DNA of 64,000 nucleotides from Nitrospiria bacterium (GTDB lineage Bacteria > Nitrospirota > UBA9217): assembly GCA_919902495.1 (NCBI GenBank), contig CAKKRC010000012.1, positions 1-64,000 of the forward strand, given 5' to 3'. The first letter of the stretch is position 1, and the number at the start of each line of letters is the position of its first letter. Below, piece by piece: positions 16,507-34,037 of the stretch. Below the pieces are notes generated by a model. The model was not told the DNA's origin. It searched no databases and saw only the letters and a program-made list of their open reading frames with translations. The position numbers and the translations under genes are program-made.

Positions 16507-16527
16507 CTGCCCCCCGCGTGACTTTGA

Positions 16528-16670: not shown

Positions 16671-16799
16671 ATGATTGAGATGTCCGAGAAAGAAAGCTTG
16701 AAAAATAATTGTAAGAAGCATATATTAGATTTCAGTTTACTATTAAAGCAATATTATCAATTGGTTGGGTTTCCGTATGCGGTTTTAGAGGCGTCATGA
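16671..16799 (+). CDS. Possible 42-residue peptide upstream of the aryl polyene operon
   Basis: The ATG at 16671, with GAGG just upstream, opens a 42-codon frame (MIEMSEKESLKNN ... FPYAVLEAS). No family is recognised. It lies between the terminator and apeC in AT-rich DNA and could be a leader peptide, a remnant, or chance. The rest of the 16563-16846 gap shows nothing else clear and no consensus promoter. Confidence 0.2.
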   Translation: MIEMSEKESLKNNCKKHILDFSLLLKQYYQLVGFPYAVLEAS

Positions 16800-16846
16800 T
16801 TCATAAGCGCTGGCCAATTTAAGAACAAAAGTTTTTTGATAAATCT

Positions 16847-17575
16847 ATGCAAAAGGCTTTGACCAAAGAGAAGCAGGTTAAGACGATTGGCTCCTTTAAA
16901 TTGCCTTTAGTAAACTGGTTTTTATTTGTCCCGTCTGTAGCTATTAGCAGTGTTCAGCTATCAAAAATAGATCCCCTTTACCGGCGCCGGCTGAGTAGTT
17001 TATCAAAAATGGCAATTGTGGCGGCATCTTCTTGCTTAAATGAGAAGCTTCCTCGACTACATACAGTTTTTGCGTCTAGGCACGGCGAGATTGGGAGTAC
17101 GGTAAAAATGCTTCATGATTTATCTAGTCAAACACAGCTTTCCCCTGCAGCTTTTAGCCTATCAGTACATAGTACGGCAGCGGGCTTCTTGTCAATTGCG
17201 CGCTCGGACCATTCTTCCTTTACGACTGTATCAGCCGGTACAGAGACGCTATTCGCAGCTTTTCAAGAAGCAGCAGGGCAATTAGCAAAAAATCCGTCTT
17301 TGTCTTTACTCGTGATTTGTGCTGATGAGGTCCTACCGGAGGAACTGAGCAAGTTTGGAGATTCGACGGATAAAGATCATGCCTTAGCCCTTTATTTTAA
17401 TGCGGCTGCAATGCAGAAGGAATTAGTTATTGAAAGTGATGCTTTTATTGGCGAGAGAAGTAGATCGCAACCAGCAATTGCTTTTGCAGATTTTCTGGTC
17501 AGTGGCGAGCGTGTATTTCATTGGAATGGGATGAGGACCTCGTGGAAGATTAAACTAAATGAAAAATCGCATTGA
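16847..17575 (+). CDS. apeC: ApeC-like chain-length-factor/ketosynthase-like protein of aryl polyene synthesis
   Basis: This 242-residue protein belongs to the short beta-ketoacyl-synthase-like group (PF13723 type) found at the head of aryl polyene clusters. It has about half the length of a full ketosynthase. At the place where a catalytic cysteine would stand it reads LSVHSTAAGFLSIA, so it has no active-site Cys, consistent with a chain-length-factor-like partner of the ketosynthase ApeO. Start ATG 16847 lacks a clear ribosome site, so the first residues are uncertain; the conserved part begins at FKLPLVNWFLFVPS. It overlaps apeD by 17 bases and is the first gene of the island operon. Confidence 0.8.
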   Translation: MQKALTKEKQVKTIGSFKLPLVNWFLFVPSVAISSVQLSKIDPLYRRRLSSLSKMAIVAASSCLNEKLPRLHTVFASRHGEIGSTVKMLHDLSSQTQLSPAAFSLSVHSTAAGFLSIARSDHSSFTTVSAGTETLFAAFQEAAGQLAKNPSLSLLVICADEVLPEELSKFGDSTDKDHALALYFNAAAMQKELVIESDAFIGERSRSQPAIAFADFLVSGERVFHWNGMRTSWKIKLNEKSH

Positions 17576-18335
17576 ATATTTATGGCGGCTAGTTGCTACC
17601 GCTGGCTGCTATGCCGTATTTTATGCGTCTGCTTTTGTTTTCATAGTGCTGGTACTGCCTGTTATCCATGTTGTTTTCCAAAACAGCGCGTCGCGAAATA
17701 GAAAGGTCCGCTGGATTATCAACAAGTACTTCATTTTCTTTGTACGCCTAATGGTCGGTTTGGGATGCATTCATATAGGGCTTTATGGAGCAGATCAATT
17801 AAAGAGTCGTAGTCCTAGGATGGTGATTGCGAACCATCCATCGTATTTAGATATCGTTATTCTTCTTTCTCTGATTCCCAATGCATGCTGTATTGTTAAC
17901 AGTAATTTATTGTCAAATCCTTTTATAGGGCTGATTGTAAAGTCTGCCGGTTTTATTTGCAATAAGATGGATTCTGAACAGGTTATTAACGATTGTATCA
18001 GTGCATTAAATAGTGGATGCCCTATAATATTTTTCCCTGAAGGGACGAGATCCGTTCCTGGCCGAGCGTTCAAGTTTCACCGGGGATTCGCTCACGTTGT
18101 TCTGAAAAGCGGGTTTGATATTCAACCTGTAACTATCAACTGTGAACCATCGATTTTAGCCAAGAGTGTTCCGTGGTATAAGATTCCCGATCGTTCAGCA
18201 AAGTTTATTATACACGCAAAGCAAAACATGAAAGCATCCAATATTACTGATGTTCATGAGGCACCTGCGATCGCAGCACGCAAAGTAGTGAGATATTTAG
18301 AGTGTTATTATGACAAAGAGATGGGGATTCGATGA
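17559..18335 (+). CDS. apeD: Lysophospholipid-type acyltransferase (ApeD-like)
   Basis: This 258-residue protein is a PlsC-type acyltransferase with an N-terminal membrane helix (about residues 15-40). The catalytic HxxxxD motif is seen as NHPSYLD, and the second block as FPEGTRSVPGR. In aryl polyene clusters this enzyme is thought to move an acyl or polyene chain onto a lipid carrier at the inner membrane. It overlaps apeC by 17 bases and apeE by 4 (ATGA), so translation is coupled. Its position in apeC-D-E-F-G order is the main argument for the specific name, since PlsC homologues are otherwise generic; a general plsC-type copy is separate at 60477. Confidence 0.85.
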   Translation: MKNRIEYLWRLVATAGCYAVFYASAFVFIVLVLPVIHVVFQNSASRNRKVRWIINKYFIFFVRLMVGLGCIHIGLYGADQLKSRSPRMVIANHPSYLDIVILLSLIPNACCIVNSNLLSNPFIGLIVKSAGFICNKMDSEQVINDCISALNSGCPIIFFPEGTRSVPGRAFKFHRGFAHVVLKSGFDIQPVTINCEPSILAKSVPWYKIPDRSAKFIIHAKQNMKASNITDVHEAPAIAARKVVRYLECYYDKEMGIR

Positions 18336-18592
18336 GCGTAAATTTTGAAGACGAAGTGAAAATCTTTATTATTGAAGCGCTAGGATTAGAAGATGTGAGG
18401 CCGGAGAATATTACTGGCGATACACACTTGTTTGGAGAAGGGCTTGGCCTTGATTCTATTGATGCATTAGAATTGGGTATGGCCATTCACAAGAAATACG
18501 GTATTCGTATTGAGTCGGGAGATAAAAGCATTCGGCAGCATTTTAGAACCGTGACAACATTATCGAAGTTCATAGATGCTAATAAAAAATAG
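18332..18592 (+). CDS. apeE: Acyl carrier protein (ApeE-like)
   Basis: This 86-residue acyl carrier protein carries the phosphopantetheine attachment motif GLDSIDALEL with Ser 42. It would hold the growing aryl polyene or the starter unit. It is acidic with four-helix ACP size and shape. The ATG overlaps the end of apeD by 4 bases, and a second carrier protein gene follows after 12 bases, as in known clusters with paired ACPs. Confidence 0.9.
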   Translation: MSVNFEDEVKIFIIEALGLEDVRPENITGDTHLFGEGLGLDSIDALELGMAIHKKYGIRIESGDKSIRQHFRTVTTLSKFIDANKK

Positions 18593-18604
18593 CAGAGGAA
18601 AGAT

Positions 18605-18856
18605 ATGAGATTATCTGAACAAGAGATATTTGAAAAATTAAAAAAAATACTGATCGATAAGTTTGAAATAAAAGAAGATAAAATAACGCTGGATGCGCAC
18701 TTATATCGCGATCTCGGTCTTGATTCAATTGATGCGGTCGATTTGGCTATTCGAGTGCAGGACCTCACAGGCAAGCGAATTGAGCGAGATGATTTTCATG
18801 ATGTGAGAACCGTGGGGGATATTGTTAAGGCTGCGCATGCCCTGTTTAATGAATGA
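18605..18856 (+). CDS. apeF: Acyl carrier protein (ApeF-like)
   Basis: This second 83-residue carrier protein has the motif GLDSIDAVDL with Ser 41 as the phosphopantetheine site. It differs clearly from ApeE in the second half (VQDLTGKRIERDDFHDVRTVGDI), so the two are probably not interchangeable; work on other aryl polyene systems assigns one to the elongating chain. AGAGGAAAG precedes ATG 18605. Its stop overlaps the next start by 4 bases. No phosphopantetheinyl transferase is encoded in the window, so a genomic one must serve. Confidence 0.9.
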   Translation: MRLSEQEIFEKLKKILIDKFEIKEDKITLDAHLYRDLGLDSIDAVDLAIRVQDLTGKRIERDDFHDVRTVGDIVKAAHALFNE

Positions 18857-19440
18857 ATGCCATGAGCATAATTGCCACGGTATTGACCGCCATTTATCCA
18901 TTGCTGGTATATTTTGGATTGAACAGATTTGAACCGCAGGTGATGGCTGTTCTTCTTGCTTTTGCAGCGCTCCTGCGCTGGCGGGGCGGTCAGAAAGCCC
19001 TGTCTGGTCTCGGCTGGGAGGGTTATGCTGCCCTGGCCGTGCCCATGTCTCTGGCTATTGCGACGGGCATAGGGAACAAGGAAATAACCCTTAAGTTATA
19101 TCCGGTTGCCGTTAATGTAACATTGCTTGTAACCTTCGGCGCAACCTTATTCAGCAAAGAAAGCATGGTAGAACGAATAGCGCGTATGCGCAGTAAAGAT
19201 AGACATCTTAATGACGAAGAGGTGCTGTATACACGAAGAGTGACTGAAATATGGTGCGCTTTCTTTGCGGTGAATGGAGCAATTTCTGCGTGGACGGCCA
19301 TGCGAACGAGCCGTGAAATTTGGGCATTCTATAATGGTTTCCTTGTCTATATTGTCATAGCGACAATTTTCAGCGTTGAATGGTTGTGTCGTCGTCGATT
19401 AATATCCAAAAAGGATCGTGAAAAACTTGAGCCTAAGTAG
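18853..19440 (+). CDS. apeG: Integral membrane protein (ApeG-like, COG4648)
   Basis: This 195-residue inner-membrane protein has about five hydrophobic helices (residues about 4-22, 28-45, 55-75, 85-103 and 142-178) and the motif YTRRVTEIWCAFFAVNG, which is typical of the COG4648 membrane proteins kept in aryl polyene clusters. Its exact role is not established; a place in lipid-linked transfer or scaffolding is inferred from cluster conservation. ATG 18853 overlaps the apeF stop; a second ATG three codons later is possible. Its end overlaps the GTG start of the ligase gene by 23 bases. Confidence 0.75.
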   Translation: MNAMSIIATVLTAIYPLLVYFGLNRFEPQVMAVLLAFAALLRWRGGQKALSGLGWEGYAALAVPMSLAIATGIGNKEITLKLYPVAVNVTLLVTFGATLFSKESMVERIARMRSKDRHLNDEEVLYTRRVTEIWCAFFAVNGAISAWTAMRTSREIWAFYNGFLVYIVIATIFSVEWLCRRRLISKKDREKLEPK

Positions 19441-21082
19441 ACTACTTTTGGATATTCGCCCCGCTGAGCAGCCGATTGCGCTCAAAAATCGGGGCTCAGC
19501 AGTTACGTGGGATGCCTTTATAGGCGGCACGGAAAAACTATATAGTGATATTGTTTCATCAACGTCCGACAGATGGATTCTTGCATGTCCAGATCCTATA
19601 GAGTTTCTTGCAGCGATGTTCGCAGTATGGCATGCCGGTAAAATACCCGTAATTCCCTCCAACTATCAGAAAGAAAGCATATCAGCTGCTCGCAGTAAAT
19701 CTGATGGCATTATCGATAATGTTGACTTGTCTCCATCAAAGCGTCCTCCAGTAAAATTCAATGCTCTCGACCTTCACGCAAGCAAGCTAATTCTTTTTAC
19801 CTCAGGGTCATCTGGTAAACCAAAACTCGTAGAGAAGACACTCTTGCAACTAGATTCCGAAGTGCTTTCCCTGGAATTGCAATGGGGGGCAAGACTTAAT
19901 AAATACCCGGTTGTTGCCACCGTTCCGCATTATCATATCTATGGGCTGCTCTTTCGATTGCTATGGCCGGTGCTGGCCGGCCGGGTGTTTATCGCAGATG
20001 AATTGACCATGCCGGATATCTTATTTTCGCAAATCCGAAAGATCGGTCCTGTTGTCCTCATTTCAAGTCCTGCCCACCTGACTCGAATACCAGCGCTTGT
20101 TGACTTGCAGGATATTAAACCTTACGTAGAATGTATCTTTTCTTCCGGGGCTCCTTTACCACATGATGTGGCATCGCTGTACGGTGAAAAAATGGGTAGT
20201 GCGCCGATAGAAGTATACGGCTCGACCGAAACAGGCGGAATCGGCTGGCGACAGGGTAGTTTATCGTGGACGCCTTTTCCATCGGTCAACATCAGGCTAT
20301 CCGGAGCAGGAACGTTAGAAGCGAAGTCGCAGCATACAGATAATCAGGATTGGTTTCGAACCGAAGATCTTGCAAAGATCGAAGAGGACGGTCGATTCTC
20401 TATTTCTGGCCGTGCAGATCGTATTGTTAAAATCGAAGGCAAGAGGGTTTCGCTTGATGAAATAACGGATCGTTTGAGTAATCATCCCTGGACCGATAGT
20501 TCGGGGGTTGTGTTTCTTGAAAAAGCGCGAAATACGCTTGGTGCCGTGGTCGTTTTATCAACGGAAGGAAGCGAGCAGCACAGTCGGCAGGATAAATCAC
20601 AGATTGTTAAAAGACTAAAAGAACATCTGTCCCAATGGTACGACCCCGTAGTCATTCCGAGACTTTGGCGCTTTGTTAGCCGCATGCCTACATCCGATCG
20701 AGGAAAAACCACGATATCAGGTCTAACATCACTCTTTGCAGATGATCCCGCTGACGGGCCAGTGATTATTTCAATGAGTAAGGCTGACAACGTCCTCGAT
20801 CTTCTGCTGTTCGTACCTTCCACATTGCCACACTTTGAAGGTCACTTTCCCGAATTCCCAGTTTTGCCAGGCGTGCTTCAAATACACTGGGCAGCGCTAT
20901 ATGGGATGCGTGAACTCAATATCAAAGGACATTTTGCGAGAATCAAGAAATTGAAATTTCACCGCGTAATATTGCCGAACACGGAATTGACACTGCAGGT
21001 AGTCGCACATAACAATAAACTCGATTTTTCATATAAAACCGCTGAGGGTATGCATTCTTCGGGACAACTGGAATTTAAGTAA
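19418..21082 (+). CDS. apeH: AMP-dependent acyl ligase fused to ApeI-like dehydratase
   Basis: This 554-residue protein joins two activities that are separate genes in enterobacterial clusters. Residues 1-440 are an adenylating ligase: P-loop TSGSSGKPK (about 128-136), YGSTETGGIGW and the core SGRADRIVKIEGKRVSLDEI. It would activate an aryl acid and load it on the carrier protein. Residues about 455-554 are a hotdog dehydratase (HFEGHFPEFPVLPGVLQIHWA, keeping the family histidine), matching ApeI, which pairs with ApeP in other systems. The GTG start at 19418 lies inside apeG, with AAAAAGG upstream. The glycosyltransferase gene follows after 6 bases. The fusion would hold starter loading and dehydration together. 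Confidence 0.88.
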   Translation: MKNLSLSRLLLDIRPAEQPIALKNRGSAVTWDAFIGGTEKLYSDIVSSTSDRWILACPDPIEFLAAMFAVWHAGKIPVIPSNYQKESISAARSKSDGIIDNVDLSPSKRPPVKFNALDLHASKLILFTSGSSGKPKLVEKTLLQLDSEVLSLELQWGARLNKYPVVATVPHYHIYGLLFRLLWPVLAGRVFIADELTMPDILFSQIRKIGPVVLISSPAHLTRIPALVDLQDIKPYVECIFSSGAPLPHDVASLYGEKMGSAPIEVYGSTETGGIGWRQGSLSWTPFPSVNIRLSGAGTLEAKSQHTDNQDWFRTEDLAKIEEDGRFSISGRADRIVKIEGKRVSLDEITDRLSNHPWTDSSGVVFLEKARNTLGAVVVLSTEGSEQHSRQDKSQIVKRLKEHLSQWYDPVVIPRLWRFVSRMPTSDRGKTTISGLTSLFADDPADGPVIISMSKADNVLDLLLFVPSTLPHFEGHFPEFPVLPGVLQIHWAALYGMRELNIKGHFARIKKLKFHRVILPNTELTLQVVAHNNKLDFSYKTAEGMHSSGQLEFK

Positions 21083-21088
21083 TATCCT

Positions 21089-21844
21089 ATGATTTTTAAA
21101 CCATGCATAGTAATACCAATATACAACCACGGTTATGCTATCGCAGCGACTATAGATAGCTTGAAAATATATGGTCTGCCGATTATCGTAATCGATGATG
21201 GCTCAGAGGAGACGACTAAACGTTCAATAGCAAAGGTCGCTACGACGCATCCGGATCTTCAAGTGCTTGTCCACAAACAAAACAAGGGGAAGGGAGCCGC
21301 ACTAAAGACGGGATTTCGAAAGGCACTTAATGATGGTTTTACTCATGCCTTGCAGGTAGATGCTGATGGTCAACATAATTTAAACGATATTCCTTCATTC
21401 CTCGTGAAAGGAAAAGAATCTCCCAACTGCCTAATCTGCGGTGAGCCTGTATACGATGAGTCAATACCCAAAAGTCGTCTCTATGGCCGGCGCATAACAA
21501 ACTTTTGGATAGTTGTTGAAACGCTGTCGCATAAGATTCCGGATGCTATGTGTGGTTACCGGCTGTATCCACTTCAACAAACGGTTTCGTTGCTAGATAG
21601 ATACTTTGTCGGAGATCGGATGGAATCCGATATCGATCTCCTCGTGCGCTTTGCTTGGCTACCTATGCCGATATATTGGATAAAAACGAAGGTGCAATAT
21701 CCTAAGGGCGGATGGTCAAATTTCCGTCTGTTTCAGGATAACGCACGGATATCCTGGGCTCATACCCGTCTTGTGGCCGGGATGATAACGCATCTTCCTT
21801 CGCTGTTAAGCAATAAAATGAACATGGGGCGAACTAGTGGGTAG
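21089..21844 (+). CDS. Family 2 glycosyltransferase (N-terminal part of ApeJ)
   Basis: This 251-residue enzyme is a GT-A fold, family 2 glycosyltransferase of the dolichyl-phosphate-mannose synthase-like group. Start IVIPIYNHG, the IDDGSEE strand end, NKGKGAALKTGF and the metal-binding DADGQH are all visible, with the acceptor-side VGDRMESDIDLLVR. It likely adds a sugar to the lipid-bound polyene. In enterobacterial clusters the corresponding domain is the first half of ApeJ; here the acyltransferase half is a separate gene overlapping by 8 bases. No strong membrane helices, so it acts on the inner face of the membrane. Confidence 0.85.
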   Translation: MIFKPCIVIPIYNHGYAIAATIDSLKIYGLPIIVIDDGSEETTKRSIAKVATTHPDLQVLVHKQNKGKGAALKTGFRKALNDGFTHALQVDADGQHNLNDIPSFLVKGKESPNCLICGEPVYDESIPKSRLYGRRITNFWIVVETLSHKIPDAMCGYRLYPLQQTVSLLDRYFVGDRMESDIDLLVRFAWLPMPIYWIKTKVQYPKGGWSNFRLFQDNARISWAHTRLVAGMITHLPSLLSNKMNMGRTSG

Positions 21845-22760
21845 ATCTGCTCATTGGGCAAAGCTTGCAGAACGCGGTAGCTATTGGGGGCTTGCTTTAA
21901 CTTTTACAATCTACCGAGTGCTTGGGCGAGCGATTGCACGGTTGCTGCTGTTTCCGATTACTATATGGTTTTTCATTACCGGCACAAAAGCGCGGCGCGC
22001 ATCTCATGATTATTTAAATAGGATCCACCGGGCAGGTGCGCTTGCTGAACCTCCTACGGTTATAGACGCCTTTCGGCATTTCTATTCCTTTGCGGAAACG
22101 GCCTTAGACAAGGTCGAAGCATGGACGGGTCGTATTGCAGCTGAGCGGATCGACTTCCCCAATCAGTACGAACTTGAACAATTAGCCAGGAGCGGGCGAG
22201 GAGCGCTCTTTATTACCGCACATTTGGGAAACATAGAGCTGGCCCGCGCTATAGGTACGAATGCGGGGTGGAAAAAGATAAATGCAATTGTGTACACAGA
22301 GCATGCACAGAAATTCAATTCCCTATTGAATAAGATGCATCCACAATCGGCGCTAAAACTGATTCACATATCGTCATTTGGGGTCGATACGGCCATCTCC
22401 CTTAAAGAAAAAATTGATGCAGGAGAATGGGTTTTCATTGTCGGGGACAGGACGCCGGTTTCCTCAAGCGGACGTGTGGTAATGGCAAATTTTCTGGGAT
22501 CACCGGCGCCATTTGCCATAGGCCCGTACATGCTTGCTCATCTTATGGCATGTAAAGTATATTTAATATTCTGTGTGCGTAAGAAGGAAAGGTTTCATAT
22601 CTACTTGGAGCCTTTTGCTGAGAAAATCGAGCTCCCGTCGAGGACGCGACAAGCCGCTATCGAGAAATGGGCGGCTCTCTATGCCGAGCGGCTGGCTTAT
22701 TACACGATGAAAACGCCTTATCAGTGGTTCAATTTTTATAACTACTGGGGAAGAAATTAA
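21837..22760 (+). CDS. LpxL/HtrB-family acyltransferase (C-terminal part of ApeJ)
   Basis: This 307-residue protein is a lysophospholipid/lipid A-type acyltransferase. The N-terminal opening HWAKLAERGSYWGL and a membrane helix (about 30-50) are typical of the aryl polyene members, and the HxxxxE motif appears as AHLGNIE. DRTPVSSSGRV and a C-terminal YQWFNFYNYW complete the family pattern. It uses GTG 21837, inside the end of the glycosyltransferase gene, so the pair is translationally coupled. It corresponds to the second half of the fused ApeJ of other species and would acylate the glycosylated product. Confidence 0.85.
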   Translation: MGRSAHWAKLAERGSYWGLALTFTIYRVLGRAIARLLLFPITIWFFITGTKARRASHDYLNRIHRAGALAEPPTVIDAFRHFYSFAETALDKVEAWTGRIAAERIDFPNQYELEQLARSGRGALFITAHLGNIELARAIGTNAGWKKINAIVYTEHAQKFNSLLNKMHPQSALKLIHISSFGVDTAISLKEKIDAGEWVFIVGDRTPVSSSGRVVMANFLGSPAPFAIGPYMLAHLMACKVYLIFCVRKKERFHIYLEPFAEKIELPSRTRQAAIEKWAALYAERLAYYTMKTPYQWFNFYNYWGRN

Positions 22761-22781
22761 ATACGATTGTTCGGTGAGACA

Positions 22782-24332
22782 ATGACAGAGAAGAACAAAC
22801 AAGCAGAACAGAGTAAGGCTTTAGTAATAGGAGAAGGCCGCATCACTATTGATGATGTGGTTTCAGTCTCAAGGGGAAGAGCGGTGACCCTCGCTAAAGG
22901 CGAGGCATTCAGATCTCGCATAGTGCGCGGCGCTCGTTATCTTGAGGAACGACTTTCTATTGGCGATACGGTGTATGGCGTGAATACCGGCTACGGCGAA
23001 TCATGCCATACGGACGTGCCCGCTGAGCTTGTCGAAGACTTGCCGATACACCTGTCTCGTTATCACGGTTGCGGACTCGGCAAATTCCTTTCGCCACCTG
23101 CATCCCGGGCCGTCATGGTTTGCAGGCTCACATCGCTTGCGCAGGGTTATTCCGGAGTACGCATAGAGTTGCTTGAAGGAATAGAAGCTCTTCTCAATAA
23201 CAACATATTACCCCGTATTCCAGAAGAGGGCTCCGTTGGCGCATCTGGCGACCTTACGCCGTTATCATATATTGCGGCTGCGCTTATTGGCGAACGTACG
23301 GTATTGTTCAACGGATCAGTCCGGCCTGCAGCAAAAGCGCTTGCGGAGGCAAGAATACGACCATTGAAGCTGGCACCGAAGGAAGCACTGGGCATCATGA
23401 ACGGAACTGCTGTCATGACGGCGTTGGCGTGCCTGGCATTTGATCGATCTGAATATCTAACGCGGCTAACGGCTCGAATAACAGCGCTTGCTTCAATAGC
23501 TTTAAGTGGAAATAAAGGACATTTTGATCCCCGCTTGTTTGCCCTGAAGCCGCATCAAGGTCAAAATGAAGTAGCAGCCTGGATATTTAATGAGCTGCCG
23601 TCAGAACCGGGAGAAACGAGTCGGATCCAGGACCGCTATTCTATACGATGTGCGCCGCACGTGATTGGCGTGCTGCGAGATGCTCTTACGTGGATCAGAC
23701 GCGACATTGAAAATGAGTTAAACAGTGCAAATGATAATCCATTGATAGACCCGGATGAGGGATGGGTGTTGCACGGAGGACACTTCTACGGGGGCCATGT
23801 GGCATTTGCCATGGATGGCCTTAAGGCAGCCGTGGCAGGCCTGGCTGATCTTATGGACCGACAAATGGCCCTATTGGTAGATCATCGCTATAGTAACGGA
23901 CTGCCCCAGAACCTGTCAGGCTCGACCGGTACACGAGCGGCAATAAATCACGGGTTCAAGGCCGTGCAAATTGCGACTTCTGCGTGGGCCGCTGAAGCAT
24001 TGAAATTAACAATGCCTGCGGCCAGCTTTTCTCGCTCTACTGAGTGTCATAATCAGGACAAGGTATCAATGGGGACGATTGCCGCGCGAGACGGGCTTCG
24101 TATCTTAGAACTGACGGAACAAGTGACGGCAGCCCTTATACTGGCGTGTTCGCAAGGCGTTCAATTACGAGAAAAGCTAAGCACAGGCCATTACAAGAAA
24201 CTGCCGGCGGAGATTCGCGCGTTCCATGAAAGTGTTGCATTTAAATATCTGGATGAAGACCGCCCGCTTGATGAAGAGCTTCGAGCGGTAATCGAGGATA
24301 TACACAATAAGCGATGGGAGTTGTACAAATGA
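22782..24332 (+). CDS. Aromatic amino acid ammonia-lyase (HAL/PAL/TAL family)
   Basis: This 516-residue enzyme forms an internal MIO cofactor from Ala-Ser-Gly (ASG, residues 154-156, in SVGASGDLTPLSY) and removes ammonia from an aromatic amino acid. At the selectivity positions it reads Tyr 94-His 95 (RYHGCG), where bacterial histidine lyases have Ser-His and the Rhodobacter tyrosine lyase has His-Leu. So substrate is not fixed, but its place inside an aryl polyene operon points to making cinnamate or coumarate as the starter acid for the ligase. ATG 22782 (GGTGAG upstream) is preferred over TTG 22767. Its stop overlaps the thioesterase start by 4 bases. Aryl polyene clusters of some other bacteria also carry such a gene. 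Confidence 0.88.
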   Translation: MTEKNKQAEQSKALVIGEGRITIDDVVSVSRGRAVTLAKGEAFRSRIVRGARYLEERLSIGDTVYGVNTGYGESCHTDVPAELVEDLPIHLSRYHGCGLGKFLSPPASRAVMVCRLTSLAQGYSGVRIELLEGIEALLNNNILPRIPEEGSVGASGDLTPLSYIAAALIGERTVLFNGSVRPAAKALAEARIRPLKLAPKEALGIMNGTAVMTALACLAFDRSEYLTRLTARITALASIALSGNKGHFDPRLFALKPHQGQNEVAAWIFNELPSEPGETSRIQDRYSIRCAPHVIGVLRDALTWIRRDIENELNSANDNPLIDPDEGWVLHGGHFYGGHVAFAMDGLKAAVAGLADLMDRQMALLVDHRYSNGLPQNLSGSTGTRAAINHGFKAVQIATSAWAAEALKLTMPAASFSRSTECHNQDKVSMGTIAARDGLRILELTEQVTAALILACSQGVQLREKLSTGHYKKLPAEIRAFHESVAFKYLDEDRPLDEELRAVIEDIHNKRWELYK

Positions 24333-24751
24333 AGACGTTGATTTCAGCCTTTGTGGAACTCGAAGTGCCATTTCACGATGTGGATGTTATGGGAGTGGTG
24401 TGGCATGGTCACTATTTAAAATACTTCGAACAAGCGCGCACCGCTCTTCTGCAAAAAATAGGGTTTGATTATCCGCAAATGATCGAGATTGGTTATGTAT
24501 GGCCGGTTGTAGAAAGCTATGTGAAGTACTTGCGGCCGATACGGTATTCACAGCGGATAAAGGTTGACGCTCAGATGGTGGAATATGAAAATCGACTACG
24601 GATGGCGTATGTGATAACGGACAGGGATACCGGAGAGAAATTGACAAAAGGAGAAACGACGCAGGTAGCCATTGAAATTAATACGAAGGAGCTGCAATTT
24701 GTATCTCCACGGCGGTTTATCGAAATAGTTGAGCAGGTGAACAATGGATAA
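24329..24751 (+). CDS. apeK: Hotdog thioesterase (ApeK-like, 4HBT family)
   Basis: This 140-residue hotdog thioesterase has the 4-hydroxybenzoyl-CoA thioesterase signature VPFHDVDVMGVVWHGHYLKY with the catalytic Asp, followed by the long hotdog helix. In aryl polyene clusters the thioesterase probably clears stalled carrier proteins or releases a chain. ATG 24329 overlaps the ammonia-lyase stop by 4 bases, better than an upstream in-frame start at 24314. The end overlaps apeL by 8 bases. Length is typical for the family. Confidence 0.85.
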   Translation: MKTLISAFVELEVPFHDVDVMGVVWHGHYLKYFEQARTALLQKIGFDYPQMIEIGYVWPVVESYVKYLRPIRYSQRIKVDAQMVEYENRLRMAYVITDRDTGEKLTKGETTQVAIEINTKELQFVSPRRFIEIVEQVNNG

Positions 24752-25361
24752 ACGTATGGGAATAGCATTGGCGATCTGCGCAGTAGTAACAGGAGTCAGT
24801 GCATATGCGAATGCAATAACAGTAAAAGAAATCGCGTCCCATGTTGGGGAAAACAGCGTTATTCATGCCGAGTTTACGCAAACTCGAAAGCTGGTGGCAT
24901 TGAAGCGCCCCATCGTATCTAAAGGGAGCGTGGCCGTAGCGGGTGGAAAAGGGATAGTGTGGCAGATAGAACATCCATACCAAGCGACATATATTATAAC
25001 GAAGAATTCTATTGCAGAGGTCGACCAGGATGGTCGAAAAAAATCAGGCCAGGCAGAGCAGGCGCAGCAGTTTAAGCAGGTAACGAAGCTGATCAGCTCT
25101 TTATTAGAATTGAATGAAAAAGATCTTTCCGAAAATTTCTCTATGTTGTCATCGGGAACTCTCGATCAGTGGACCGTAAATCTCGCTGCACGCGACACCC
25201 TTGCTAAATATATAGCCAAAATAACGATGCGAGGCGGTTCTTTTGTCGATGAGGTGACTATTGAGGAAACATCAGGCGACAGTAGCCAGATACAGTTTCA
25301 CTCTGCCCGAAAGGACGAACCGCTTTCATCCCGGGAGTTAATGCTTATACAAGGGCGCTAA
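24744..25361 (+). CDS. apeL: LolA-like outer-membrane lipoprotein carrier (ApeL)
   Basis: This 205-residue periplasmic protein has a Sec signal peptide (to about residue 24, ending AYANA) and the LolA fold pattern: VIHAEFTQTRKLVALKRPIVSKGSV, then GIVWQIEHPY. LolA carries lipidated molecules across the periplasm; the version in aryl polyene clusters likely carries the polyene lipid to the outer membrane. It overlaps apeK by 8 bases and is followed after 3 bases by the exporter gene, so carrier and exporter would be made together. Confidence 0.85.
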   Translation: MDKRMGIALAICAVVTGVSAYANAITVKEIASHVGENSVIHAEFTQTRKLVALKRPIVSKGSVAVAGGKGIVWQIEHPYQATYIITKNSIAEVDQDGRKKSGQAEQAQQFKQVTKLISSLLELNEKDLSENFSMLSSGTLDQWTVNLAARDTLAKYIAKITMRGGSFVDEVTIEETSGDSSQIQFHSARKDEPLSSRELMLIQGR

Positions 25362-25364
25362 ATA

Positions 25365-27656
25365 ATGCGTTATTGGGTCTACTGTATAGCTCTACTATTG
25401 ATTCTGGCGGGATTATTATTTCAATTTATCGGGAAGCAGCCAATTGAAACGGATCTTTTGGCGCTCTTGCCTGACGTTAAGCAGAATCCGGTGGCAGAGC
25501 AAGCTGCGGATCGATTAACCAGTCTGTTAAGCGAAAGGATGATTTTCTTAATCGGGAGTCAGAATAGTGTCGAGGCAAAGAAATCTGCCGAGGCATTTAC
25601 AACGTCTCTGCGCGAAAGCAAAGCGTTCAAGTCCGTGCAGGCTAAGATCAACGCGCCAGACCTGGATTCGCTGATCAATTTGTATGCACGTTACCAAAAT
25701 GGTCTCCTCGTTTCCGATGATTTGCAGGCATTGATTGAAGGAAAGGAAGTTCTGAACAAAAGACTAATCAGTCGTCTTGCCTCTCCTTTTGCGCATGGAA
25801 TGATTTCCGTATCAAAGGACCCTTTTGGATTTTATAGTAACTGGCTTGGACATCTGCCGTATCGCAACCTTCGACTTCAGGTTAGCGACGGATGGTTGAT
25901 GGCGAGTCAAAATGACAATACTTGGATTTTGGCGAGTACGGCATTAGATGGTTCTCCTTTTACGCCATCTATAGAGGAAAAAAGTCTTCATGCAGTGCAT
26001 GAGGCAACAGCGCTTCTAAAAAAAGAATATCCTGACGTAAAAATACTGCGTGCCGGGACCATATTTCACAGCTCGGTCATCCGGAAACGGGCAGAACAGG
26101 AAATCAATCTTATCGGCGGAGTGTCGCTAGCAGGCATAATATTATTGATTCTAAGCGCATATCGCTCGCTGAAAGTCTTGAGCCTAGGCTTATTGTCAGT
26201 CGGGACAGGCATATGTGTTGGATTGCTGACAACGATAACTATATATGGCCGAATCCATTTGATGACGCTGATATTCGGCGCTAGTCTTCTTGGAGAGGCA
26301 ATTGACTATTCCATTCAGTACTTTTCCGTTCGTCTAGGCGCAGGCGAGAGTTGGGAGCCACATAGTGGTTTGAGGAATGTGAGCCCTCGCCTGATGGTAG
26401 CGTTGCTAACGAGTATACTGGGCTATACAGCTCTTACCTTGACGCCATTCCCCGTGTTGTCTCAGATCGGCGTGTTTGCGATCTCGGGGCTTATCGCCTC
26501 TTTTATAACTGTCGTTATGGTATTCCCTTTTGCATTATCTGATATGCAAAAGATACTGCCAAGACGTCTATTGAAGCTGTCAGGTCGATTCATGACATCT
26601 TATAAGGATCGGCTCTCTAAGCTACATGTCATGGTGATAATAACACTCATTCTCCTAATATCAGCGCTCGGTCTGTTCAAACTTACGAGTAATGATGACA
26701 TCAAACTATTAGTGTCGTTATCGCCCGCGCTTGTCCAGGAAGAGCAGCAAGTGCGCGAACTTACGGGTGTGAGTGGCAGCAGTCAGTTTATCCTAGTTGA
26801 GGGATCCACTGATCAAGAAGTCCTGGAAAATGAAGAAAATCTGGGAAAGCTGCTGATAAAGGAAGGGATAGAGATGCAAGGCGTATCGAGCTACGTTCCC
26901 TCGTGTAAAAAACAAACTGAAAATAGAATTATTTATAAAAAGAGGATGGCAGATCTCAAAGCAATAATGTCGGATATCGGATTTACGGATAGCGCCATAC
27001 ATTCGATGGCGTTAACGGCACGTAATAATGACTGCATGACGGTCGATCGATGGCTGGCATCTCCCATTTCAAAACCACTAGAGCATATGTGGATGGGGAA
27101 GACACAACATGGATATGCCTCAATTGTACTTCCGTCGGGATATAAGAGTGTCGGCGATCTGGCCATGGCGGTCAATGGTATCTCTGGGGCGACGGTAGTA
27201 GACAAGCCAGGGACAATATCGAAGTTAATCGGTAAATTTAGGCGGCTGGCGGGCTGGGCGTTGATTGGGGCAATCGCACTCGTTTCCCTCGTTCTGGTTG
27301 TACGATATGGCCTAATAAACGGTGGCGGTGTGCTCCTGCCAACGGTCTTGTCATTGCTTGTGACAGCGTCTCTATTGGGATATATGGCGATTCCTATAAC
27401 ACTTTTCCACGTGCTCGCTTTATTGCTTGTAGTTGGCGTCGGTGTCAATTATTCAATATTTCTCGTTGAGGGCATTGATCAAGAAAACTCAACAACACTT
27501 GGTGTGCTGCTGTCGGTTCTAACAGCCTTCCTTTCCTTTGGCTTGCTATCTTTTTCGTCAATGCCGGCGGCGCATAATTTTGGAGTTACCTTGGCAATTG
27601 GCCTATTTGGTGTGGCATTGCTTTCCCCGATATCAGTGGTGCTGAAAGGGAAATGA
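25365..27656 (+). CDS. apeM: MMPL/RND-family exporter (ApeM)
   Basis: This 763-residue inner-membrane protein has the RND/MMPL layout: one N-terminal helix, a large periplasmic loop (about 30-235), a block of five or six helices (about 240-400), a second periplasmic loop (about 435-620) and a second helix block to the end. The first block contains LIFGASLLGEAIDYSIQYF and the second VLALLLVVGVGVNYSIFLVE, the paired GxxxDY/N-type membrane motifs of MMPL lipid transporters (the second has Asn for Asp). It would flip or extract the aryl polyene lipid for ApeL. Its stop overlaps apeN by 4 bases. Confidence 0.87.
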   Translation: MRYWVYCIALLLILAGLLFQFIGKQPIETDLLALLPDVKQNPVAEQAADRLTSLLSERMIFLIGSQNSVEAKKSAEAFTTSLRESKAFKSVQAKINAPDLDSLINLYARYQNGLLVSDDLQALIEGKEVLNKRLISRLASPFAHGMISVSKDPFGFYSNWLGHLPYRNLRLQVSDGWLMASQNDNTWILASTALDGSPFTPSIEEKSLHAVHEATALLKKEYPDVKILRAGTIFHSSVIRKRAEQEINLIGGVSLAGIILLILSAYRSLKVLSLGLLSVGTGICVGLLTTITIYGRIHLMTLIFGASLLGEAIDYSIQYFSVRLGAGESWEPHSGLRNVSPRLMVALLTSILGYTALTLTPFPVLSQIGVFAISGLIASFITVVMVFPFALSDMQKILPRRLLKLSGRFMTSYKDRLSKLHVMVIITLILLISALGLFKLTSNDDIKLLVSLSPALVQEEQQVRELTGVSGSSQFILVEGSTDQEVLENEENLGKLLIKEGIEMQGVSSYVPSCKKQTENRIIYKKRMADLKAIMSDIGFTDSAIHSMALTARNNDCMTVDRWLASPISKPLEHMWMGKTQHGYASIVLPSGYKSVGDLAMAVNGISGATVVDKPGTISKLIGKFRRLAGWALIGAIALVSLVLVVRYGLINGGGVLLPTVLSLLVTASLLGYMAIPITLFHVLALLLVVGVGVNYSIFLVEGIDQENSTTLGVLLSVLTAFLSFGLLSFSSMPAAHNFGVTLAIGLFGVALLSPISVVLKGK

Positions 27657-28210
27657 TGGCAAGGAGCCTAATCTTATGCATGCTGATTCTTGGCGGCTGC
27701 GCGAAGCTTCCGGATACGTGCACAACAGTATTTCCCCGAACAACATATTGCATCCAAGGTACCGAGGGAATTGACGCTTTTTCAGTCTTGCAGGAAGTGG
27801 AATTCAAAAGTAATGACTCATCAGGCAAATTCCTCATTCGCCTGGAAGTTGATCAGACGGCTTTTCGTATGGCACTCTTAACCATGCTTGGTCAAAGCTT
27901 GGGGAGTCTGAGCTATGAGAAAAATAGCGAAATAAGAGTGATTGCACCAGGCGGCGAGAAACACTTTAATATTTTGATGCCAGTAGCATATGTTCAATTA
28001 GCCCTTTGGCCCAGGGAAATAATTCTGAAAGGATTGCAGGCGCAGTCCATCGATGTGCAGGAGTCGAGCAGGCGGCGAGTGTTCATGAACAAGAAAGGAA
28101 ATACAATCATTGCCATAGAATATGAGGGGACGGCCCCTCCGTATGATCGTCTTGTTATGTCATCTTCCGAAGGCCATAAGGTGATTATTACTACGCTGGA
28201 AAGGGATTGA
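27653..28210 (+). CDS. apeN: DUF3261 lipoprotein (ApeN)
   Basis: This 185-residue lipoprotein has a short signal peptide ending in the lipobox LILGGC (Cys 16). The mature part (FLIRLEVDQTAFRMALLTMLGQSLGSLSYEK) fits the DUF3261 family kept in aryl polyene clusters, whose fold resembles LolB-type lipid acceptors. It is a reasonable candidate for the outer-membrane receiver of the polyene lipid from ApeL, but that is inference. The gene overlaps apeM by 4 bases and touches apeO at its stop codon. Confidence 0.8.
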   Translation: MMARSLILCMLILGGCAKLPDTCTTVFPRTTYCIQGTEGIDAFSVLQEVEFKSNDSSGKFLIRLEVDQTAFRMALLTMLGQSLGSLSYEKNSEIRVIAPGGEKHFNILMPVAYVQLALWPREIILKGLQAQSIDVQESSRRRVFMNKKGNTIIAIEYEGTAPPYDRLVMSSSEGHKVIITTLERD

Positions 28211-29397
28211 TGGGACAGCCTGCTTATTTAAATGCCCTGGGCATCGTTTCGGCCTTAGGGGTAGGAAAGGTCGAAACGACCAGACGCCTGATGGCCGGTG
28301 ATACATTAGGTATGGGCAAAGACGAAAATCTGCTCATTGGTGGAACTGTCTTAGTGGGTTGCGTAACAGCAAAAACAGCTATCGTTCCCCAAGAATATCC
28401 ATATCATAATTCAAGGAACAATGAATTATTGCTCACAGCAATTGACGAGATACGCGATGATATTGATAATATCATCTCAAAGTATGGGGCTCAGAGGGTC
28501 GGTGTGGTCCTCGGAACGAGCACGTCCGGGATCAGGGAGGGCGAAAAGGCAATAGCAACATATGATAGAAATGGCAAGCTGCCGGATTCTTTTGATTATA
28601 GAATGTGGGAAATCGGATCCCCCGCGCTATTCCTGTCTAAGTACCTGGACATTTCGGGCCCTTCATACGTTGTATCAACTGCGTGTTCGTCCAGTGCAAA
28701 GGCCCTGATAGCGGCGCGTAACATGCTGCTGGCAGGTCTTTGTGACGCTGTAATCACCGGTGGAGTTGACAGCCTTTGCCAATTAACCGTGAATGGCTTT
28801 AATGCCCTTGAATCGATATCCTCGGAGCTCATGAATCCCATGAGCATCAATCGTAAAGGTTTAAACATTGGAGAGGGAGCTGCTGTATTTATTATGTCAC
28901 GAGAGCCGGCGCCAATAGCTCTTCTCGGGGCGGGAGAGGCGAGTGACGCATATCATTTTACGGCACCGGATCCGAAGGGTGTCGGCGCCACTATGGCAAT
29001 TAATGATGCATTGACAGACTCTGGCATTGCAAAAGACGACTTGTGCTATCTCAACCTCCACGGGACCGCTACCAAAAAAAATGATGAAATGGAATCGAAT
29101 GTGATTTTCAGGGTGCTCTCGCCCCACATACCCTCGAGTTCAACAAAGCCTTTAACGGGTCATACCCTGGGGGCAGCAGGCGCAATCGAAGCCGCCTTTT
29201 GCTGGCTGACGATTTCGGACTATAATACTGAAGGTGTTCTTCCTCCGCACATATGGGATGGGAAAATCGATATCAACTTGCCGACTATAACGCTTGTTGA
29301 ACATGGCCGCAAACTACAAGGGCCAAAATATACCATGAGCAATTCATTCGCTTTTGGAGGAAGCAATGCGTCCCTGGTTGTCGGAGAAGCGCGATGA
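28210..29397 (+). CDS. apeO: Beta-ketoacyl-ACP synthase (ApeO)
   Basis: This 395-residue ketosynthase has the complete Cys-His-His triad: Cys 159 in STACSSSAK, His 284 in NLHGTATK and His 318 in LTGHTLGAAG. It would add malonyl units to the aryl starter, acting with the CLF-like ApeC in known systems. It begins with the thiolase-fold lead MGQPAYLNALGIVSALG and ends FAFGGSNASLVVG. ATG 28210 shares one base with the apeN stop; a TTG at 28207 is a less likely start. It overlaps apeP by 4 bases. Confidence 0.9.
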   Translation: MGQPAYLNALGIVSALGVGKVETTRRLMAGDTLGMGKDENLLIGGTVLVGCVTAKTAIVPQEYPYHNSRNNELLLTAIDEIRDDIDNIISKYGAQRVGVVLGTSTSGIREGEKAIATYDRNGKLPDSFDYRMWEIGSPALFLSKYLDISGPSYVVSTACSSSAKALIAARNMLLAGLCDAVITGGVDSLCQLTVNGFNALESISSELMNPMSINRKGLNIGEGAAVFIMSREPAPIALLGAGEASDAYHFTAPDPKGVGATMAINDALTDSGIAKDDLCYLNLHGTATKKNDEMESNVIFRVLSPHIPSSSTKPLTGHTLGAAGAIEAAFCWLTISDYNTEGVLPPHIWDGKIDINLPTITLVEHGRKLQGPKYTMSNSFAFGGSNASLVVGEAR

Positions 29398-29864
29398 GTG
29401 TGTATCCTCCTATCGAGATGCTCATACCACATAGACCTCCGATGATGCTTATCAACGGAGTCGTTGGCGAAGTTGAGGAAGGACTTATCGCAACTGCGCT
29501 GCCTGATCCTAAAGCTTGGTATGCTAATGAAGATGGGTCGATGCCGGCATGGATAGGGATCGAATTGATGGCTCAAGCAATCTCTGCATGGGCTGGTCTG
29601 CAGGCATATAAAGCAGGCATGCCCCCAAGAAAAGGTTTTCTGATTGGTACAAGAGAATATATGAGCAAATGCCCGTCCTTTACCGCAGGAAATGCATTGT
29701 TTATAGAAGTACGCAAGGTCTTTTCTGATCCCCAGGGTCTTGCCGCATTTAACTGCCTGATACGGGATGACAGAACTGTGTTTGCAGAAGCTGTGGTGAA
29801 AGTTATAAATGTCGATAACTACGAAGCCGCAATGGCGCCATCAGGAAAATCATATGAACAATAA
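29394..29864 (+). CDS. apeP: Hotdog dehydratase (ApeP)
   Basis: This 156-residue FabA/FabZ-like dehydratase opens with the motif MLIPHRPPMMLINGV carrying the catalytic His, and the second block AWIGIELMAQAISAWAG carries the acidic residue (Glu) on the hotdog helix. In other aryl polyene systems ApeP pairs with ApeI to remove water from the beta-hydroxy intermediate; here the ApeI domain is fused to the ligase. The gene starts in the ATGA overlap with apeO and ends 11 bases into apeQ. Confidence 0.87.
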   Translation: MSVYPPIEMLIPHRPPMMLINGVVGEVEEGLIATALPDPKAWYANEDGSMPAWIGIELMAQAISAWAGLQAYKAGMPPRKGFLIGTREYMSKCPSFTAGNALFIEVRKVFSDPQGLAAFNCLIRDDRTVFAEAVVKVINVDNYEAAMAPSGKSYEQ

Positions 29865-30567
29865 GCGCATATTAATCACTGGTTCTACAAGAGGTATCGG
29901 TCGCGAAATAGCTCGCAAGTTGGTAGGTAGCGGCTACAAGGTAACAGTTCACGGACGATCCAAAGAGGATTCGCGCAGAGTAGCGCAGGAACTCTCTGCT
30001 GACGACGCGCTGGCATTTGATGTAACGGATCGAGCGGGTGCTAAGGATGTGCTGGAAAGAGTTGTTGAGGAAAAAGGCGCTTATTGGGGTGTCGTTTTAA
30101 GTACCGGATTGGCGCGAGATAATACATTTGTAGCCCTGTCAGACGAAGATTGGGATCTTGTTCTTGCAAGCAGTCTCGATGGATTTTATAATGTTCTCCA
30201 TCCACTCATGCTTCCATTGGTGCGATTGCGAAGTGGCGGGCGAGTAGTGGTCATTTCTTCCGTGTCTGGTGTAACTGGGAATAGAGGCCAGGTAAATTAT
30301 TCTGCAGCAAAGGCGGGCCTCATCGGTGCCGCAAAAGCCTTGGCGGTAGAATTAGCTACTCGCAAGATAACAGTTAACTGCGTAGCTCCAGGCCTCATTG
30401 ATACGGAGATGACCCGTGACGTGCCCATTGAAGAAGCGCTGAAGATCGTTCCCATGGGAAGACTGGGGAAACCAGAGGAAGTTGCTGCTCTCGTTGCTTT
30501 CCTAATGTCAGAAGAAGCGTCTTACATTACACGACAGGTGATAGGGGTTAATGGGGGCATCATATGA
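29854..30567 (+). CDS. apeQ: 3-oxoacyl-ACP reductase (ApeQ, FabG-like SDR)
   Basis: This 237-residue short-chain dehydrogenase has the NADPH motif TGSTRGIGRE, the catalytic Ser in ISSVSGVTGN and the YSAAKAG pair (Tyr and Lys), with the C-terminal GVNGGI typical of FabG. It reduces the 3-keto group after each condensation. ATG 29854 lies inside apeP and has AGGA upstream, so the longer in-frame extension from 29809 is rejected. It overlaps apeR by 4 bases. Confidence 0.9.
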   Translation: MNNKRILITGSTRGIGREIARKLVGSGYKVTVHGRSKEDSRRVAQELSADDALAFDVTDRAGAKDVLERVVEEKGAYWGVVLSTGLARDNTFVALSDEDWDLVLASSLDGFYNVLHPLMLPLVRLRSGGRVVVISSVSGVTGNRGQVNYSAAKAGLIGAAKALAVELATRKITVNCVAPGLIDTEMTRDVPIEEALKIVPMGRLGKPEEVAALVAFLMSEEASYITRQVIGVNGGII

Positions 30568-31793
30568 GCCGTCGTGTAGTGATCACGGGGATGGGATGTG
30601 TATCCGCTCTTGGTGATGATTGGGCGACTCTAAAGGCTAATCTTCTTAAGCAGAAGACCGCGACTCGAGTAATGCCCGAATGGGATAAGTTCGTCGATTT
30701 GCAAACCCGGCTGGGTGCTCCTGTGGATCATTTTCAACTACCTTCTCACTATACACGTCGTGCCGCTCGGTCTATGGGACGCGTATCGCTTTTGGCCGTC
30801 AGGGCTTCTGAGCTTGCGATACAAGAATCCGGTTTGATCGATAATCCGGTTCTGACCAATGGCAATACTGGGATTGCTTATGGATCTTCAGCTGGGAGTA
30901 TGGATTCGTTAAGGATCATCGGGTATATTTTGGAAACAGGAAAAATGAAGGGTTTAACCGCGGCAACCTATATTCAGTCAATGAGTCATACTGCGGCGGT
31001 TAATATTGGAATATTCTTTAAGATACGCGGAAGGGTAATTCCGACGTCCAGTGCATGTACCTCAGGCAGTCAGGCAATTGGTTATGCGTATGAGTCGATT
31101 CGTTACGGTAAGCAAAAGGTCATGGTGGCAGGCGGAGCTGAGGAGCTATCAGCCTTTACGGCGATGATCTTTGACGTGTTGTTTGCGACGAGTACTAAGA
31201 ATACAACTCCGCAGTTAACTCCGAGCCCTTTTGACAAAAGTCGAGACGGCTTAGTCGTCGGGGAGGGAGCGGCGACATTAATTCTGGAAGAGTATGAGCA
31301 TGCGAGGACCCGAGGAGCAAAGATATATGCAGAAATTGCTGGTTACGGATGCAACTCGGATGGCATGCATATAACACAGCCAGATGCAGTATCCATGGCA
31401 GCTGTAATGAGATTGTCTTTGCAGGATGCAGGACTCAAAGAAAAAGAGATTGGTTACATTAATTTGCACGGGACCGGTACTAAGCACGGCGACATAGCAG
31501 AGTCGATGGCGACAAATGAAGTTTTTAGCAGCGCAGTGCCAGTGTCGGGTGTCAAAGGACATTTCGGACATACTTTGGGAGCCAGCGGAGCTTTGGAGGC
31601 AATGATCACGATTAACATGATTAACGAGGGCTGGGCTGTACCGAATGCAAACCTGGTTGAAGTTGATCCCGATTGTGCTAAAATAGATTTCATTATTGAA
31701 TCAGCACGAAAGATATCTACGCAGTATTCAATGAGCAATAACTTTGCATTCGGTGGAATAAATACATCTCTTATTTTTAGAAAGACTATTTGA
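30564..31793 (+). CDS. apeR: Beta-ketoacyl-ACP synthase (ApeR)
   Basis: This 409-residue ketosynthase has the full triad: Cys 165 in SSACTSGSQ, His 302 in NLHGTGTKHGD and His 336 in FGHTLGASG. It is only moderately like ApeO, consistent with two distinct ketosynthases, one for elongation and one for an accessory or initiating condensation. It is the last gene of the aryl polyene operon; about 90 bases without an obvious terminator separate it from a lipoprotein gene of similar base composition. Confidence 0.9.
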   Translation: MSRRVVITGMGCVSALGDDWATLKANLLKQKTATRVMPEWDKFVDLQTRLGAPVDHFQLPSHYTRRAARSMGRVSLLAVRASELAIQESGLIDNPVLTNGNTGIAYGSSAGSMDSLRIIGYILETGKMKGLTAATYIQSMSHTAAVNIGIFFKIRGRVIPTSSACTSGSQAIGYAYESIRYGKQKVMVAGGAEELSAFTAMIFDVLFATSTKNTTPQLTPSPFDKSRDGLVVGEGAATLILEEYEHARTRGAKIYAEIAGYGCNSDGMHITQPDAVSMAAVMRLSLQDAGLKEKEIGYINLHGTGTKHGDIAESMATNEVFSSAVPVSGVKGHFGHTLGASGALEAMITINMINEGWAVPNANLVEVDPDCAKIDFIIESARKISTQYSMSNNFAFGGINTSLIFRKTI

Positions 31794-31880
31794 TCAGCGA
31801 TGTGTGCGCATTCGTGGATTGTAGTTTTTGAATCAGCATTCAGCTTATAGGTCGTCTAATAACGTTAAAGGAGAAGGGCA

Positions 31881-34034: not shown

Positions 34035-34037
34035 CCC

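Follow-up and report, generated by a model that had tools for sequence, protein, structure and literature searches.

A nearly complete aryl polyene operon of proteobacterial type, very probably gained by horizontal transfer, at a defined insertion site in a Nitrospirota genome

The aryl polyene (APE) cluster of Escherichia coli CFT073 (apeA–R; PMC8253772) takes its 4-hydroxybenzoate starter from UbiC, and apeA, apeB, and apeK mutants accumulate immature polyene acids. In Bacteroidetes, the flexirubin cluster of Chitinophaga pinensis directs a polyene esterified with dialkylresorcinol; flexirubin biosynthesis is started by a tyrosine ammonia-lyase, and FlxA is a proven enzyme of this kind even though one of its motifs looks histidine-type (PMC3992019). 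Here we describe an APE operon in a Nitrospiria bacterium of the phylum Nitrospirota (assembly GCA_919902495.1), found within the first 64,000 nucleotides of contig CAKKRC010000012.1, a stretch hereafter called the window. It is a genuine APE operon that was very probably gained by horizontal transfer, and its insertion site can be mapped; in all likelihood, this nearly complete set of biosynthesis and export genes came from a relative of the order that holds a sampled Zoogloeaceae genome, and was inserted between a CsgG-like and a hydrolase-like gene. The pathway itself is known; what gives the locus its value is how clean the insertion is, together with the pairing of a built-in starter enzyme with a host that has no detectable UbiC.

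As originally predicted, seventeen collinear plus-strand open reading frames (ORFs) at 16847–31793 follow the apeC-to-apeR order of the E. coli cluster (L041), and Pfam and NCBIfam searches recovered ape-type domains across them. Five of the proteins (ApeE, ApeF, ApeO, ApeQ, and ApeR) score above the curated thresholds of NCBIfam, as do the matches to the Pfam ApeI-like and ApeP-like models above theirs; identity to the E. coli counterparts runs from 24% (ApeL) to 57% (ApeR), with ApeN not significant by BLAST. The genes are as tightly coupled as had been claimed, with junction gaps of 3–12 bp and overlaps of 4–23 bp; the ApeP/ApeQ overlap, 56 bp between the longest ORFs, is 11 bp if ApeQ starts from the ATG at 29854. 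The window shares with E. coli the C–R set and its order, the L-M-N exporter set, and an ApeA homologue, but differs in having H and I fused, J split, an ammonia-lyase gene added, ApeA at the 3′ end, and no ApeB. The full order in the island is C-D-E-F-G-HI-J1-J2-ammonia-lyase-K-L-M-N-O-P-Q-R-lp1-A (Table 1); lp1 had no match in Pfam, NCBIfam, PHROGs, or plasmid records.

The gene set includes a ketosynthase–chain length factor pair, ApeO-ApeC (NF006618 above cut-off; PF13723; chains of PDB 6qsp and 7f28), a second ketosynthase, ApeR, with aryl-recognition residues, two acyl carrier proteins (ACPs), an aryl:ACP ligase, two dehydratases, and a ketoreductase. No separate enoyl reductase is present; ApeQ, the only reductase, matches Pfam adh_short_C2, whose description reads enoyl-ACP reductase, yet passes 3-oxoacyl-ACP reductase FabG models. 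Genes for envelope attachment and export (D, J, L, M, N) are also present, ApeN being recognized by Pfam DUF3261 only and ApeM by E. coli similarity only. Cys and His motifs are kept in ApeO and ApeR, YxxxK in ApeQ, DSI in both ACPs, and the MIO triad in the lyase; we take these motifs to have their familiar roles. Tyr136 and Phe203 of ApeR align with Tyr135 and Phe202 of Acinetobacter baumannii ApeR (PDB 7f27), which stack the aryl group according to the abstract of PMC8358021, whose body text also writes Phe205.

The ammonia-lyase gene has no counterpart in the E. coli cluster and is located between J and K. It occurs in 18 of the 28 loci compared, always directly before ApeK (some loci are partial, and two of the 18 represent one genome); we do not claim that its presence in APE clusters is unpublished. 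The protein belongs to the aromatic amino acid lyase family and has the MIO motif (PF00221, 518.5 bits; ASG); its best NCBIfam model, matched below cut-off, is a tyrosine ammonia-lyase, and it scores 302 bits against the flexirubin FlxA model (cut-off 700). The UbiC family (chorismate lyase) was found in none of 4 host-family (f1) genomes and in both of 2 proteobacterial genomes, E. coli being the only positive among 14 control genomes. Because UbiC was not found in the host, the ammonia-lyase is probably the source of a p-coumarate starter.

The original prediction held that the window contains no ApeA; on the contrary, the ORF closing the island encodes an ApeA homologue (Table 1). The ten-row clade described below holds nine further loci: six (L043, L152, L153, L155, L158, L185) carry an ApeA-like gene 3′ of apeR in the same orientation, and L156 carries one 5′ of apeC; none was seen in L044 or L186. 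That ApeB is lacking was correct: no recognizable homologue matched in the window, to which this search was confined. ApeB also went without a match in 21 of the 24 other loci examined, several of them partial, and is no fixed feature in the locus comparison. The Pfam matches of the island proteins include neither a phosphopantetheinyl transferase (PPTase) nor a regulator, in agreement, within that scope, with what had been reported; the E. coli cluster is likewise without a PPTase of its own (PMC8253772). The host genome carries one ACPS-family PPTase gene, outside the island.

In the pathway we propose, the ammonia-lyase would convert tyrosine to p-coumarate, which ApeH would load onto ACP ApeE or ApeF. 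ApeR would begin, and ApeO-ApeC continue, decarboxylative condensation with malonyl-ACP; in each round, ApeQ would reduce and ApeI and ApeP would dehydrate, yielding a conjugated polyene. The polyene would next be released and joined to a lipid by ApeK, ApeD, and both ApeJ proteins, and ApeM, ApeL, and ApeN would export it to the outer membrane, where it would serve as a yellow antioxidant pigment. With no ApeB in the window, we predict an aryl head without methylation, and the accumulation of immature acids in E. coli apeA, apeB, and apeK mutants suggests that attachment may differ here. Substrates, product, expression, and benefit are in each case predictions from gene content.

The predicted low-GC island is readily apparent, as 16.6-kb windows outside it have a GC content of 0.572–0.603 (Table 1). 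GC at third codon positions (GC3) is 0.34–0.58 in 19 island genes versus 0.60–0.89 in 21 flank genes, and codon distance to the flanks is 0.24–0.51 versus 0.11–0.25 in the same sets. This separation is almost full (Mann–Whitney p 4.8e-7, island genes over 500 bp), lp1 (0.24) being the sole island gene within the flank range; GC and codon usage, the check proposed with the prediction, both differ from the flanks. In a genome of the same genus (G001), flank homology extends to 16563 at 88.5% identity and returns from 33176 at 78%, with 175 bp between (overall range of flank identity, 78–89%), and the true island ends lie within 16564–16846 and 33082–33175. In G004 and G010, both of genus g3 in the same family, the CsgG-like and hydrolase-like genes are adjacent with no insert; the hydrolase-like gene is followed by genes for a small protein and for what we take to be a DUF4105 protein, and in G010 a further ~2 kb of other sequence lies between the hydrolase-like gene and that for the small protein. 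The empty site is therefore seen in all three family genomes where both flanks occur together. In G002, G005, G008, G009, G011, and G012 the flanks were not found together in the stretches compared; G003, G006, G007, and G013 were covered by the flank-gene search only.

A strong terminator does lie at the left edge, as had been noted, but it belongs to the native upstream gene and not to the island: this stem is also found after the orthologue of that gene in G001. The alpha/beta-hydrolase-like fold name of the right neighbour is presumed from reading its sequence. The host has a second CsgG-like gene (L113; G000:C40:1659–2567), 80% identical to the left neighbour of the island.

Table 1. Features of the acquired island and its immediate neighbours, with positions in the window.
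Feature	Position	Strand	Basis
Acquired island, ~16.6 kb	16564–33175		blastn homology to G001:C15 ends at 16563, resumes at 33176; GC 0.462 vs 0.577 in rest of window
CsgG-like lipoprotein, native left neighbour	15535–16506	+	PF03783; 82% to G001 orthologue
Intrinsic terminator of native CsgG-like gene	16526–16558	+	15-pair stem then T-run; same stem after G001 orthologue
ApeC, ketosynthase chain-length factor	16847–17575	+	PF13723, 161.6 bits; 31% to E. coli ApeC over 129 aa; PDB 7f28_A, 6qsp_B
ApeD, lysophospholipid acyltransferase-like	17559–18335	+	PF01553; 31% to E. coli ApeD, 6e-41
ApeE, acyl carrier protein, D-S-I motif	18332–18592	+	PF00550; NF006617 above cut-off; 49% to E. coli ApeE
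ApeF, acyl carrier protein, D-S-I motif	18605–18856	+	NF003757 above cut-off; 44% to E. coli ApeF
ApeG, membrane protein	18853–19440	+	41% to E. coli ApeG over 109 aa, 1e-28
ApeH-ApeI fusion, aryl acid:ACP ligase and hotdog dehydratase	19418–21082	+	PF00501; PF22818 ApeI-like; E. coli ApeH over 2–444, ApeI over 460–544
ApeJ part 1, family 2 glycosyltransferase	21089–21844	+	PF00535; 45% to first half of E. coli ApeJ
ApeJ part 2, LpxL-like acyltransferase	21837–22760	+	PF03279; 39% to second half of E. coli ApeJ
Aromatic amino acid ammonia-lyase, probable starter enzyme	22767–24332	+	PF00221, 518.5 bits; MIO triad ASG at 159–161
ApeK, 4HBT thioesterase	24314–24751	+	PF13279; 54% to E. coli ApeK
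ApeL, LolA-like carrier	24744–25361	+	PF03548; best NCBIfam LolA2_flexi, below cut-off; 24% to E. coli ApeL
ApeM, RND/MMPL-type exporter	25365–27656	+	28% to E. coli ApeM over 767 columns, 4e-76; Pfam matches only below cut-off
ApeN, DUF3261 lipoprotein, LolB-like role	27653–28210	+	PF11659, 57.7 bits; blastp to E. coli ApeN not significant (E 1.2)
ApeO, elongating ketosynthase	28207–29397	+	NF006618 above cut-off; PDB 6qsp_A, 1.4e-101; C-H-H triad motifs intact
ApeP, dehydratase	29394–29864	+	PF22817 ApeP-like; 29% to E. coli ApeP
ApeQ, ketoreductase	29854–30567	+	Longest ORF from 29809, ATG at 29854 preferred; NF004200 FabG above cut-off; 50% to E. coli ApeQ; YSAAK motif
ApeR, second ketosynthase	30564–31793	+	NF006587, 655 bits vs cut-off 470; 57% to E. 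coli ApeR; PDB 4ewg, 7f27
lp1, putative lipoprotein inside island	31881–32516	+	LSGC lipobox
ApeA homologue, lipoprotein, island 3′ end	32653–33081	+	34% to E. coli ApeA over 126 columns, E 8.6e-15; tblastn 2.6e-13
Alpha/beta-hydrolase-like protein, native right neighbour	33168–34034	+	83% to G001 orthologue, adjoining CsgG-like gene there

A concatenated tree of seven proteins (25 rows, 2504 columns) nests the window cluster inside the Pseudomonadota, grouping it with G490, G821, and G822 at 100/100 and within a ten-row clade at 100/100. This tree omits L165, L157, L039, L038, and L154, which are long, duplicate, distant, or rearranged, and L166, which has fewer than five of the genes; L049 and L187 are also outside it. 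Placement was unchanged (99 SH-aLRT) in an earlier tree that kept L039, L154, L157, and L165. For ApeR alone, the window falls in an 11-row clade with ten Pseudomonadota rows (99), apart from the ketosynthases of the host phylum and from the host's own FabF-like proteins. Neither ApeO nor ApeR groups with FabF of the host lineage, the outcome that the original prediction had named as telling against it, and the single-gene trees are the weaker ones; composition, the empty sites in three family genomes, and trees placing the cluster with Pseudomonadota all support the transfer it proposed. Constraining the window ApeR to one clade with the phylum's ketosynthases gave a p-AU of 0.0488, only marginal, and we therefore place the weight on the seven-protein tree. 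A further ketosynthase pair with ketoreductase-like and ACP-like matches occurs elsewhere in the host (L103; G000:C18, ~159266–163147); its ketosynthases (L003, L005) sit on long branches away from those of the island in the ApeR tree.

The clusters of G490, G821, G822, and Zoogloeaceae bacterium G21618-S1 (L152, L185, L186, and L043/L157, respectively) have the same order as the window, including the lyase between J and K. An ApeA-like gene lies downstream of R in L152, L185, and L043/L157, as in the window, while L186 ends after R. The best relative, L152, continues after R with small lipoprotein-like ORFs, ApeA, and ApeB; L152 and L185 differ from the window in having additional sequence in the K–L and R–A intervals, and ApeB after ApeA, and L043/L157 in an extra ketosynthase-like gene after R. 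Identity of these clusters to the window over the seven-protein alignment is at most 54% (L185), and their GC content also differs, at 0.63–0.66. A scan of named genome contigs with ApeR, using patterns from the window protein and thus reaching close relatives only, returned 8 loci at 55–61% identity, all Pseudomonadota by title. Zoogloeaceae are Betaproteobacteria in the NCBI taxonomy, and sampling the order of the Zoogloeaceae genome yielded closer clusters (G490, G474, and others). Searches for a closer donor found no ApeM above 46% identity in a 399-genome sample of the order of G396 (42 with ApeM at E 1e-60) or in 117 genomes of the family of G490 (5 with ApeM at 1e-100), and plasmid records offered no nearer source, ApeR matches occurring in 80 of them, all below 60% identity. 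The donor was most likely a bacterium related to the order holding the sampled Zoogloeaceae genome, that is, Betaproteobacteria-like. L165 was considered as a low-GC source (GC 0.41) and rejected: it is distant in the tree, and the loci nearest in the tree are high-GC.

Several observations weigh against an APE pathway acquired in this way. On the side of origin, the ApeO tree recovers the same group with a support of only 82, and in the single-gene trees, which also place the window in that group, the sister is not resolved. The GC content of the closest clusters stands well above the 0.46 of the island, which implies that the actual donor is unsampled or that the island DNA has since changed. 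No direct or inverted repeat of at least 9 bp links 16451–16850 with 33051–33260, no integrase, transposase, or other mobility domain appears among the Pfam matches of the island proteins, and the sole tRNA in the window, at 39727, is not at an island end. With no integrase or transposase, att repeats, or end tRNA found, the island does not show the marks of an integrative mobile element; with occupied and empty sites, foreign composition, and foreign phylogeny, it qualifies as a horizontally transferred island. On the side of function, the window lacks ApeB, without which E. coli does not progress beyond immature polyene acids (PMC8253772); the ACPS-family gene is the sole PPTase-family gene found, a candidate that may activate ApeE and ApeF; and the lyase matches 8 NCBIfam models, in no case reaching the cut-off (at best BagA/FevW, 411 of 1000 bits; HutH, 382 of 539). 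Given the precedent of FlxA, failing curated models is no obstacle to the putative tyrosine ammonia-lyase role. Promoter-like sites are at chance level, with 25 found and 27.6 expected in 15000–34500.

The missing ApeB and the chance-level promoter sites would also fit an acquired operon that is silent or makes a related lipid, dialkylresorcinol-like or a polyunsaturated fatty acid. We consider this improbable, as the ApeC–R set is complete, the aryl-stacking residues of ApeR are conserved, and the operon holds lyase and ligase genes for an aryl starter.

An APE operon in this phylum had been called an unusual setting, which is true of the ApeR-bearing type only. Across 395 genomes surveyed in the host phylum, ApeR was found to pass its family cut-off in one, the host itself, whereas ApeO does so in 40, namely the host, 37 genomes of family f9, and 2 of f10; at most four candidates were scored per genome, making both counts lower bounds in principle, and scoring every candidate gave ApeO over cut-off in 3 of 61 genomes. 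Aryl polyene calls have also been published for four Nitrospira species (PMC9765116) and one Nitrospiraceae bin (PMC13055281). As a check on the phylum, chlorite-dismutase-family genes of relatives were set against PDB entries: a copy from G021 had coproheme decarboxylases as best hits and was uninformative, two copies from G146 are closest to 3nn1, an entry from 'Candidatus Nitrospira defluvii', and the host (G000) has no gene of this family; the comparison makes Nitrospirota plausible. APE-like clusters are thus already known in the phylum, and that of the window is of a different, proteobacterial type. The f9 and f10 clusters (L039, G029:C108, and L038, G022:C10) resemble it in ApeO, ApeE, ApeM, ApeP, ligase, family 2 glycosyltransferase, and acyltransferase, L039 also in C, L, and Q; they differ in having no ApeR over cut-off and no ammonia-lyase match, and reach 24–46% identity to the window. 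It is these clusters, in 39 other phylum genomes, that lend some colour to the idea of an APE cluster ancestral to the phylum, retained here with an unusual base composition and lost in relatives. To this we give very little credence: no ApeR over cut-off was found in those 39 under the same scoring, the ApeO proteins of eight sampled f9 and f10 genomes cluster with each other and a single gammaproteobacterial row (98), apart from that of the window, the insert is missing between the flanks in three family genomes, and the island differs from its flanks in composition. An assembly chimera, with contaminating proteobacterial DNA joined into the host contig, is highly improbable even for a draft genome of 110 contigs with 1.28% estimated contamination and a window that starts at the first base of its contig, leaving only ~16.5 kb to the left of the island, as both junctions fall in intergenic sequence of a 203-kb contig, between two genes that adjoin each other in relatives, and two independent false joins at that site are unlikely.

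APE clusters are very widespread, but one locus rarely suffices to reveal a transfer from phylum to phylum; in this case, the empty site, the occupied site, the island ends, and the sister clusters are visible together. A built-in starter enzyme in a host without detectable UbiC would offer a simple rule for transferability. We tentatively suggest, as a possibility somewhat short of an even chance, that the island is a self-sufficient pigment cassette able to cross phyla into a host lacking UbiC, from which the 4-hydroxybenzoate starter usually comes, and that there it would make an unmethylated, p-coumarate-primed polyene as the first ApeR-type cluster of the phylum, and that starter autonomy predicts which APE clusters are mobile. 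The host would be expected to carry an antioxidant outer-membrane pigment that the same-genus G001 and G002, both searched, appear to lack.

Other ketosynthase loci came to light in the course of these comparisons. Scores of 388–457 bits mark ApeR-like proteins in 16 of the 395 phylum genomes. In G008 (L101/L102; G008:C120:40000–72000), ApeR-like (41%), ApeO-like, and ACP genes occur with radical-SAM, FAD-dependent oxidoreductase, glycosyltransferase, and MMPL genes; L105, L106, L107, and L109 are partly similar to this multi-ketosynthase cluster, which may represent an uncharacterized pigment or lipid pathway. The gammaproteobacterial locus L047 has two sets of ape-like genes side by side.

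Elsewhere in the window, a second low-GC stretch at 1757–3322 (GC 0.42 at 2–3 kb; GC3 0.36) looks foreign; it is a 521-aa ORF with a marginal Pfam match to PD-(D/E)XK_9 (E 0.0025) and a match to phrog_30194 (1.3e-8). At 4352–5506, a RuBisCO large-chain catalytic domain (PF00016, 108 bits) possibly belongs to a RuBisCO-like protein.

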